Of a stretch of 64,000 nucleotides of DNA, positions 47,859 to 51,857 are shown piece after piece. The notes under the pieces are model-generated. The model did no database searches, was not told the origin of the DNA, and worked only from the letters and a program-made list of their open reading frames with translations. Origin of the DNA: Acidobacteriota bacterium (lineage in GTDB: Bacteria; Acidobacteriota; Vicinamibacteria; Vicinamibacterales; CAVVIG01). Location: the NCBI GenBank assembly GCA_003222395.1, contig QHWB01000030.1, positions 110,221 to 174,220 on the forward strand, read 5' to 3'. Numbering within the stretch: position 1 is the first letter of the stretch; each line of letters starts with the position of its first letter. The position numbers were made by a program, and so were the translations under genes.

Positions 47859-49151
47859 TCATGTCCATGCTTCTCCTTTGGGGAACTCAAACGCGCGTCG
47901 CGACGACTCGCGGATGGTGATGCTGTAGCCGGGAGTGGTCGGTGGCATATAGCGGCCGCGGCGAATGACGACCGGATCCTCGAAATGCTCGTGGAGGTGA
48001 TCGACGTACTCGATGACCCGGCCGTCCATCGATCCCGACACGGCGATGAAATCGAACATCGACAGGTGCTGCACGTACTCGCACAGGCCGACGCCGCCGG
48101 CATGCGGACACACCGGGATGCCGAACTTCGCCGCCATCAGGATGACCGCGAGGTTTTCGTTCACGCCGCCGAGCCGGCAGCTGTCGATCTGGCAGAAGTC
48201 GATGGCGTCGGCCTGCATCAGCTGCTTGAACACGATCCGGTTCGCGCAGTGCTCGCCGGTGGCGACGCCGACGCCCATCGGACGCACCGCTTTCGCGATC
48301 GTCAGATGGCCGAGCACGTCGTCGGAGCTCGTCGGCTCTTCGATCCACCAGAGCCGCATCGGCGCGAGCTCGCGCACGCGATCGATCGCCTCGTCGACCT
48401 CCCACTGCTGGTTCGCGTCGGCCATCAGCGTGCGCTCCGGACCGATCGCCTCGCGCACGAGCGCGAGGCGGCGGCGATCGTCGTCAGGCCGGCCTCCCAC
48501 CTTCACCTTGAAGTGCGTCCAGCCCTCGGCGTGCGCCTGACGGCAGAGCGAAAGGACTGCTTCGTCGCCGTAGCCCATCCAGCCGACCGACGTCGTGTAA
48601 GCCGGGTAACCGCAGCGCAGCAGCTCGGCCTCGCGATCGCGCTTCGTCCGCGCGTGTCGTTCGAGCAGGCCGGTGGCTTCGTCCGCAGACAACGCATCGG
48701 TGATGTAGCGGAAATCGATGCAGGAGACCAGCTGCCGTGGCGTCATGTCGGCGAGCAGTTTCCAGAGTGGTTTGCGCTCTGCCTTCGCGTACAGATCCCA
48801 CACCGCGTTGACGACGGCGGCCAGCGCGAGATGAATGACCCCCTTCTCGGGACCAAGCCATCTGAGCTGCGAGTCCGACGCGAGCCGGTGCCAGAACGCG
48901 GCGAAGTCCGGCGTGATCTCTTCGAGGCGCCGGCCGACGACGAGGTGCCGAAACGCGTCGACGGCCGCGACGACCACCTCGTTGCCGCGGCCGATGGTGA
49001 ACGTCAGCCCATGCCCCTCGACGCCGGCATCCGTCGTCAGCACGACATATGCGGCCGAGTAATCGGGATCGACGTGCACGGCATCGGTGCCCGCGAACGT
49101 CTTGGATGTCGGGAACCGCAGGTCGATGACGTGAAGCTCGCGAATAATCAA
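47859..49151 (-). CDS. fucD: L-fuconate dehydratase, enolase superfamily
   Basis: 430 aa. Dehydrates L-fuconate to 2-keto-3-deoxy-L-fuconate. Strong FucD features are RFPTSKTFAGTDAVHVDPDYSAAYVVL at the N-terminus, the KVKVG lysines, ADANQQW, WWIEEPTSSDD, GVATGEHCANRIVFKQLMQADAI and FCQIDSCRLGGVNENLAVIL, with CPHAGGVGLCEYVQH. Start taken as TTG at 49151, giving the family's N-terminus. No good ribosome site, because a structured repeat (49166-49329) lies directly upstream. It is the last catabolic gene of the fucose cluster. Confidence 0.9.
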   Translation of the reverse strand: MIIRELHVIDLRFPTSKTFAGTDAVHVDPDYSAAYVVLTTDAGVEGHGLTFTIGRGNEVVVAAVDAFRHLVVGRRLEEITPDFAAFWHRLASDSQLRWLGPEKGVIHLALAAVVNAVWDLYAKAERKPLWKLLADMTPRQLVSCIDFRYITDALSADEATGLLERHARTKRDREAELLRCGYPAYTTSVGWMGYGDEAVLSLCRQAHAEGWTHFKVKVGGRPDDDRRRLALVREAIGPERTLMADANQQWEVDEAIDRVRELAPMRLWWIEEPTSSDDVLGHLTIAKAVRPMGVGVATGEHCANRIVFKQLMQADAIDFCQIDSCRLGGVNENLAVILMAAKFGIPVCPHAGGVGLCEYVQHLSMFDFIAVSGSMDGRVIEYVDHLHEHFEDPVVIRRGRYMPPTTPGYSITIRESSRRAFEFPKGEAWT

Positions 49152-49165
49152 GTGTAATTTTTTCA

Positions 49166-49329
49166 AACCACAGAGACACGGAGACGCAGAGAAGACTGCA
49201 CGCGAACACCCCTGGGGCACCCCATTGAACGCCGATCGCTTCGGCGGCCGGGCCGCTTCGCGGCCCGGCATGCGTCGCGTAGCGACGCCGCCAAAGCGAG
49301 GCGCGCTGGGTCTCTGTGTCTCTGTGGTT
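49166..49329. repeat. nested inverted repeat with three-way-junction potential
   Basis: Outer arms AACCACAGAGACACGGAGA (49166-49184) and its inverse (49311-49329, one mismatch). Inside are a 13-bp stem (49236-49248 with 49287-49299, one mismatch) and two perfect hairpins, GCCGGGCCGC-TTC-GCGGCCCGGC (49247-49269) and GCGTCGC-GTA-GCGACGC (49272-49288). It fills the gap between the permease stop and fucD. The outer word is a repeat known from many bacterial genomes. Confidence 0.8.
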
Positions 49330-50321
49330 GAAATCCTCCGTGTTCTCTTGCTAACTCTGTGAACTCCGCCACCGATCCAGCGCCACCGCGCCGACGATGA
49401 TCGATCCGGTGACGATCTGCTGCACCCAATTCGGCAGTCCCTGCTGCGAACAGCCGATTTGAATCACCGCCATGATCGCCGCGCCGGCGATCGTGCCGAC
49501 GACGCTGCCCTTGCCGCCCGAGAGGCTGCCGCCGCCGATGATGACGGCGGCGATGACGTCGAGCTCGAGGCCGACGGCGACCGTCGGATCGCCGACCGAC
49601 AGCTTCGAGAACTCCATGACGCCCGCGAGCGCCGCGCAGGCGCCGGCGACGGCGTAGACCGCAACCTTCGTGCGGTTGATGCGCACGCCGCACAGCCGCG
49701 CCGTCCGCTCGCTCGAGCCGATGGCGAACAGATGGCGCCCGAAACGCGTGTACCGCAGCGTCAGCGCCACGACGATTGCGAGCGCAACGGTGAGCCAGAT
49801 GCCCGTCGGCAGCAGCAGCCCGCTGCCGTCGCGCACCGTCCGCAGCAGGTTGTTCAGCCACGTGATCGGCGCCTCGATGCGCCGCTCGTCGGCGAGCCCT
49901 TTTGCCGCGCCTCGTACGAGCAGCATGGTGCCGAGCGTGACGATGAACGGCACGACCCGAAGCTGCGTGATCAGCAGGCCGTTGGCGGCGCCGCACAGCG
50001 CTCCGGCAACGATCGCGCCGACGGCCGACACCGCAGGACCGGCGTGCCGATTGAGGATCAGCGCCGTCACCACCGTGCTGAGCGCGACAACCGATCCGAC
50101 CGACAGATCGATCCCGCCCGACACGATGACCATCGTCATCCCGAGCGCGGCGACGCAGACGATGACCGTCTGCCGCGCCATCAGCTCGAGATTGGCCGCG
50201 CGGAAGAACTGCGGGCCGATCAGCGCGCCGAAGATCAGCGCGACGACGACGAGCCCGGCGAGCACGCCGGCCTCGTCGACGAGACGGCGCGGCCTCCGGG
50301 GCGCAGGGGCCCCCGGAGTAA

Positions 50322-51857
<1,536 letters not shown>

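Follow-up and report, generated by a model that had tools for sequence, protein, structure and literature searches.

A gene-less, MITE-like hairpin repeat with tandem-unit arms in an acidobacterial intergenic region, and related elements carrying GxxExxY genes

The stretch of DNA analysed here (the window) comprises 64,000 nucleotides of contig QHWB01000030.1, from the genome of an Acidobacteriota bacterium, and includes an ABC sugar permease gene (BPD_transp_2; 49351-50376) and a fucD-like gene of the enolase superfamily (47859-49151), both on the minus strand. Between the permease stop codon and the TTG start of fucD lies a repeat originally predicted to be a nested inverted structure spanning 49166-49329, the arms and stems of which were all recovered. 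The outer arms (49166-49189 and 49306-49329), one an inverted copy of the other, are 24 nt long, 92% complementary and common to about 22 copies in the genome; the left arm consists of three GAG-type units, ACCACAGAG, ACACGGAG and ACGCAG, and the arm units of the window copy are of the forms CACAGAG, CACGGAG and CGCAGAG. A spacer (49190-49235), the 3' end of which is the family-conserved GAACGCCGATC, leads to a core closed by a 13 nt stem (49236-49248 pairing with 49287-49299, 92% complementary). The core contains the 10 bp hairpin A (49247-49269; 49247-49256 pairing with 49260-49269 at 10/10 positions), which differs in sequence among copies with its pairing kept, and the 7 bp hairpin C (49272-49288; 49272-49278 pairing with 49282-49288 at 7/7 positions). 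Apart from 2-base overlaps these four stems are mutually compatible, as the proposed three-way junction requires.

The limits first assigned to the repeat, 49166 and 49329, are not its true ends, as two further arm layers lie outside them in full-length copies elsewhere in this genome. The window copy keeps these only on its right, permease-proximal side, and there they coincide with the final part of the permease gene, stop codon included: the right half of layer 2 (CTCCGTGTTCTC, 49336-49347), lacking its left counterpart, and that of the outermost layer 1 (CTCTGTG, 49355-49361), within the last codons of the gene. Nor does the repeat fill the whole intergenic gap, as had been thought: about 14 bp next to fucD and about 21 bp next to the permease gene remain outside it. 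The folding calculation bore out the nested structure, with z-scores of -8 to -9 and a fold more stable than shuffled controls on both strands: the minimum free energy was -103.7 kcal/mol on the plus strand (shuffled mean -67.9, z -8.2) and -107.2 kcal/mol on the minus strand (shuffled mean -70.6, z -9.4), with 0 of 200 shuffles as low in either case. A search of Rfam with the element returned no significant family.

The genome, searched as 7.74 Mb in 118 contigs, was found to harbour about 22 dispersed copies with the same arms, ranging from 72 to 589 bp and mostly possessing the core too. Two full-length copies are 78-79% identical to that in the window, and about twenty more share its arms and, for the most part, its core. 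From the outside inwards, the full anatomy comprises layer 1 (CGACACAGAG/CTCTGTGTCG), a loop, layer 2 (GAGAACACAGAG/CTCTGTGTTCTC, with both halves present in full-length copies such as C89:34355, C26:18070 and C15:43179), a further loop, layer 3 (AACCACAGAGACACAGAG(ACGCAGAGA), equivalent to the arms first described), the spacer and the core, which is closed by GCCGATCGGTTCGGCGGC/GCCGCCGAACCGAGGC and encloses hairpins A and C. Four other copies have an additional hairpin B of about 30 bp between A and C. Among ten distinct closing stems, changes on both sides were found at 4 of the 10 pairs, and the covariation of 0.313, compared with 0.102 when shuffled (0/500), was lost when the partner was slid, indicating that pairing has been maintained.

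One 589 bp copy (C25:146223), with arms of the window type, encloses a gene encoding a GxxExxY protein (PF13366, TIGR04256) at C25:145691-146035, the offset between these positions reflecting the orientation of the locus layout. Its arms are composed of CACAGAG, and its core folds as a cloverleaf with a sequence unlike the cores of the short copies. Genes of this family are present in 74 of 199 genomes from the phylum, at up to 21 copies per genome, and their association with inverted arms was assessed at the 83 loci with full flanks from the highest-scoring inverted match of one 300 bp flanking sequence to the other. The median score was 46, against 19 when right flanks were swapped among loci, and a threshold of 32 was reached at 72 of the 83 loci and by 9 of 246 swapped pairs. 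Random segments reached it in 2 of 244 cases, one of them located inside such an element (L098). For instance, at locus L060 the arms extend from -41 to -15 and from +176 to +203 relative to the match to the gene. At two loci (L238 and L251) the inverted flanks are far longer, at 82-133 bp, those of L238 including the long hairpin GACGCACGGGGGCGCAGG.

The arms of GxxExxY loci nearly always consist of roughly three 8-10 nt units in tandem, which vary by locus (CACAGAG, CGCAGAG, CACCGAG, CACGAAG, CACCGAT, CGCGAAT, GCGGAG, ACAGGAT and others) and are identical in the two arms of any one locus. Unit classes mapped onto a phylogeny of 89 GxxExxY proteins are clustered, requiring 34 changes compared with 57.3 when shuffled (0 of 200 as low), a clustering to which near-copies contribute in part. 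Across 105 copies of the protein, D69, E79-x-K81 and Q93 are conserved in 96% and Y97 in 91%, a pattern corresponding to a RecB/Cas4-like PD-(D/E)XK nuclease, with a weak match to Cas4 (E 0.0075); such conservation suggests that the protein has been selected as a nuclease. A match in the PDB to ketol-acid reductoisomerase, covering 52 residues with no stretch significant alone, was judged to be due to chance. The window copy shares the inverted arrays of about three matched 8-10 nt units, of the C-R-C-N-R-A-K type, and contains no GxxExxY gene, such that it can be assigned to this class only as a non-coding derivative.

The repeat in the window is likely to belong, as a MITE-like member without a gene, to an undescribed class of hairpins with unit arms, probably mobilised by GxxExxY proteins. 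The class is apparently mobile, judging from its distribution; the nuclease would recognise the unit arms and either mobilise the element or, alternatively, cause one arm to be copied onto its partner. Gene-less copies such as that in the window would then have been moved in trans or represent decayed descendants. As with MITEs, the element is short, non-coding, dispersed in multiple copies and delimited by terminal inverted repeats, and a gene-carrying relative with similar ends, the C25 copy, is present in the same genome. Unlike those of MITEs, its ends are arrays of tandem units that change in sequence between elements, and the candidate enzyme is a PD-(D/E)XK protein rather than a DDE transposase. 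Furthermore, target site duplications were found in none of 22 elements from this genome or 56 from across phyla, repeats at the ends being no longer than those in swapped flanks, and the element is consequently described as MITE-like and not classed as a MITE.

Two further types of gene were found in similar positions. The 23S-rRNA-IVP (S23) genes (PF05635), encoding a four-helix bundle, were present in 58 of 119 genomes searched and have the same architecture constructed from other units, including TCAGCTG, GGGATCA, GGTAGTC and GGGATTCG; flank scores of at least 32 were obtained at 29 of 34 loci, compared with 2 of 165 swapped pairs. Inspection of individual IVP loci (L061-L066, L376-L405) found the genes between inverted arrays of 7-8 nt units with a vocabulary differing from that of GxxExxY arms. 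The third cargo is an HNH gene, in which the HNH match is confined to the C-terminal part and the N-terminal part has no assignment. It was observed as an open reading frame between CACCAAG arms at L363 (460-1146), L375 and L358, sites at which relatives have GxxExxY. To our knowledge, no function has been assigned to either GxxExxY or IVP/S23 proteins.

Occupancy of orthologous sites was compared for two gaps in the 47 genomes of genus g70, as raw states rather than counts of gains and losses. At the first, between genes for a thiolase and a 3-hydroxyacyl-CoA dehydrogenase, 20 of the 47 genomes have a spacer of about 36 bp and thus appear empty, although such sites could be relics themselves. 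Other genomes host five element types, comprising GxxExxY genes with CGCAGAT or CACAGATT arms and palindromes without a gene, 81-118 bp long, in which the units are CGCGAAT, CGCGAAA or CGCAGAG. At the second, preceding the dihydroorotase gene, some genomes have GxxExxY with ACACCGATG arms, while others have the HNH gene with CACCAAG arms or gene-less elements of CACCAAG, CGCCGAG, CAGCTGT or CCAGACT units. One further occupant of this site (L317, in genome G264) resembles a unit-armed hairpin deleted down to AACAC/GTGTT-like stumps. At these loci, the class therefore exhibits the presence and absence at orthologous sites that is typical of MITEs.

A different explanation for these patterns is that unit arms are older features of the host, such as protein-binding or structural arrays, into which GxxExxY, IVP and HNH genes have homed as passengers. 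This would account for gene-less arrays of several types occupying the same gaps and for an architecture common to genes of three families. It would also suit the class-2 'global regulator binding sites' described in Geobacter metallireducens in 2009, 21 pairs on opposite strands with three tandem TCTCCGTS[Y] repeats each and variable spacing, which are unit arms of the kind seen here; they were annotated as possible IHF/HU sites, with no link drawn in the passages describing them to GxxExxY or to mobility (PMC2700814). By contrast, unit type follows the GxxExxY clade and the vocabularies of GxxExxY and IVP genes differ, rendering this an unlikely origin.

Equally doubtful is the proposal that each site has hosted a single ancient hairpin evolving in situ, its arms rewritten in concert by template switching from one side of the hairpin to the other, without transposition. 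Such a process would produce arms that are matched within an element and different between orthologous sites, and the stumps in G264 resemble a deletion of the hairpin tip, but it fits poorly with families of similar copies dispersed through one genome and with a site that is empty in 20 of the 47 genomes compared.

The site in the window likewise differs among relatives in the element that it holds. The order of permease then fucD occurs in four genomes of the family, the window's included, with gene identity in the relatives read from translated sequence. Where the window genome has its CACAGAG element, G017 has a CACAAAG/CACGAAG palindrome in a gap of 145 bp, G025 an AACGGAG-type palindrome in a gap of 183 bp (-85 kcal/mol) and G010 a decayed sequence of 393 bp with layered right arms (CTCGGTGT/CTCAGTGTTCTC/CTCTGTGTCG), in which no matched arm pair was detected. 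No empty permease-fucD gap was found among the relatives compared, only different elements.

These differences bear on the original suggestion that the repeat controls fucD as a terminator or attenuator, or more generally is a structured cis-regulator, perhaps an mRNA processing hairpin, under selection for this role. Its very stable fold in an operon gap and its position between co-directional genes would be expected of such a regulator. However, a scan for intrinsic terminators detected no terminator-like site on either strand, the coding strand has no U-tract after the hairpin, and the approximately 22 copies lie at loci unrelated to one another. Moreover, since the corresponding gaps in relatives are occupied by other elements, of unrelated unit sequence, the sequence of the element is not conserved for fucD control, and selection for regulation is accordingly quite improbable. 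An incidental effect on the mRNA may nevertheless occur: the long stem could be a substrate for RNase III, splitting the permease-fucD transcript and reducing coupling, as a side effect rather than the reason for the presence of the element, and elements might persist between the stop codon of one gene and the start of the next because a hairpin is tolerated there. The TTG start of fucD (49151-49149, minus strand), part of the same prediction, is supported by relatives, in which ATG occupies the corresponding position or the codon immediately before it. The fucD frame is also open through much of the element up to an ATG at 49271 (47859-49271, minus strand), a start that orthologues do not support.

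There is very little chance that the repeat is instead a REPIN- or BIME-type element moved by a RAYT (HUH Y1) transposase: it resembles the REPs and REPINs amplified in many bacteria in consisting of paired, intergenic palindromic units, but differs in sequence architecture, with arms of tandem 8-10 nt units rather than REP hairpins and GxxExxY as the gene inside them, and the single Y1_Tnp gene in this genome is not flanked by the repeat, no such arms being found within 1.5 kb of it.

Parts of the pattern have already been published, without the link to genes. In addition to the Geobacter sites, GGGAATC heptamer arrays in Xanthomonas and Nostoc, forming 70-75 convergent inverted pairs per Xanthomonas genome, resemble IVP-type arms; they were taken to be G-quadruplex repeats, and their authors reported no general association with mobile elements (PMC4692102). 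Similarly, the intervening sequences (IVSs) of 23S rRNA are regarded as selfish hairpins, in which IVP genes are known as a small S23/IVP ORF in the loop of an inverted-repeat stem of about 28 bp (PMC4990558). These lie in rRNA helices and are excised by RNase III, unlike the intergenic, gene-less element in the window, which is not an IVS; IVP genes elsewhere have unit arms. Literature searches of freely accessible journal articles identified no paper tying the Geobacter or Xanthomonas arrays to GxxExxY or IVP genes; those on the arm sequences returned irrelevant matches only, and those on GxxExxY, PF13366 and PF05635 no paper about such elements.

The outer word of the repeat, AACCACAGAGRCACAGAGR, is widespread in bacteria, as had been expected, occurring in at least 119 stretches from many phyla. 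Among the matches listed, its hosts include Planctomycetes, Acidobacteria, Verrucomicrobia, Cyanobacteria, Bacteroidetes, Spirochaetes, Chloroflexi, Nitrospirae, Proteobacteria, Sorangium and one Diapherotrites MAG, and most of the stretches are palindromes differing in their interior. An intact GxxExxY gene lies between CACAGAG arms in a member of the Verrucomicrobia (L167), and a decayed one in the Diapherotrites MAG (L149), contigs of MAGs being possibly misbinned. Plasmids of Bacteroides and Bernardetia likewise have GxxExxY between CACAGAG arms, and three of five plasmid GxxExxY genes have no clear arms. Locus-specific inverted extension of the flanks was weak in cross-phylum copies (z about 3.6) and may correspond to lineage-specific arm length.

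A more general hypothesis, advanced tentatively as falling a little short of probable, is that these elements constitute a new class of mobile element in bacteria and perhaps archaea, in which the loop of a hairpin with short tandem-unit arms encodes a GxxExxY PD-(D/E)XK nuclease or, for sister classes, a protein of the S23/IVP four-helix-bundle or HNH type. The nuclease and units would co-evolve, with the units of both arms rewritten together; IVSs of 23S rRNA would represent one niche of the class, and many of the 'orphan' repeats between genes would be derivatives of it that lack a gene. Under this hypothesis, the joint rewriting of all units on both arms suggests that copying across the hairpin is involved. 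The location of GxxExxY and IVP genes within matched-arm hairpins gives both proteins a testable role, and the hypothesis, if true, would explain abundant intergenic repeats that have been taken for regulator sites, G-quadruplexes or orphan palindromes, while the continued matching of arms whose sequence changes would represent an unusual mode of concerted evolution. Several CACAGAG palindromes (L115, L159, L165, L171 and L098) contain a second palindrome with CGCAGATT, CACGGAT or CACGAAG units, indicative of either nested insertion or growth.
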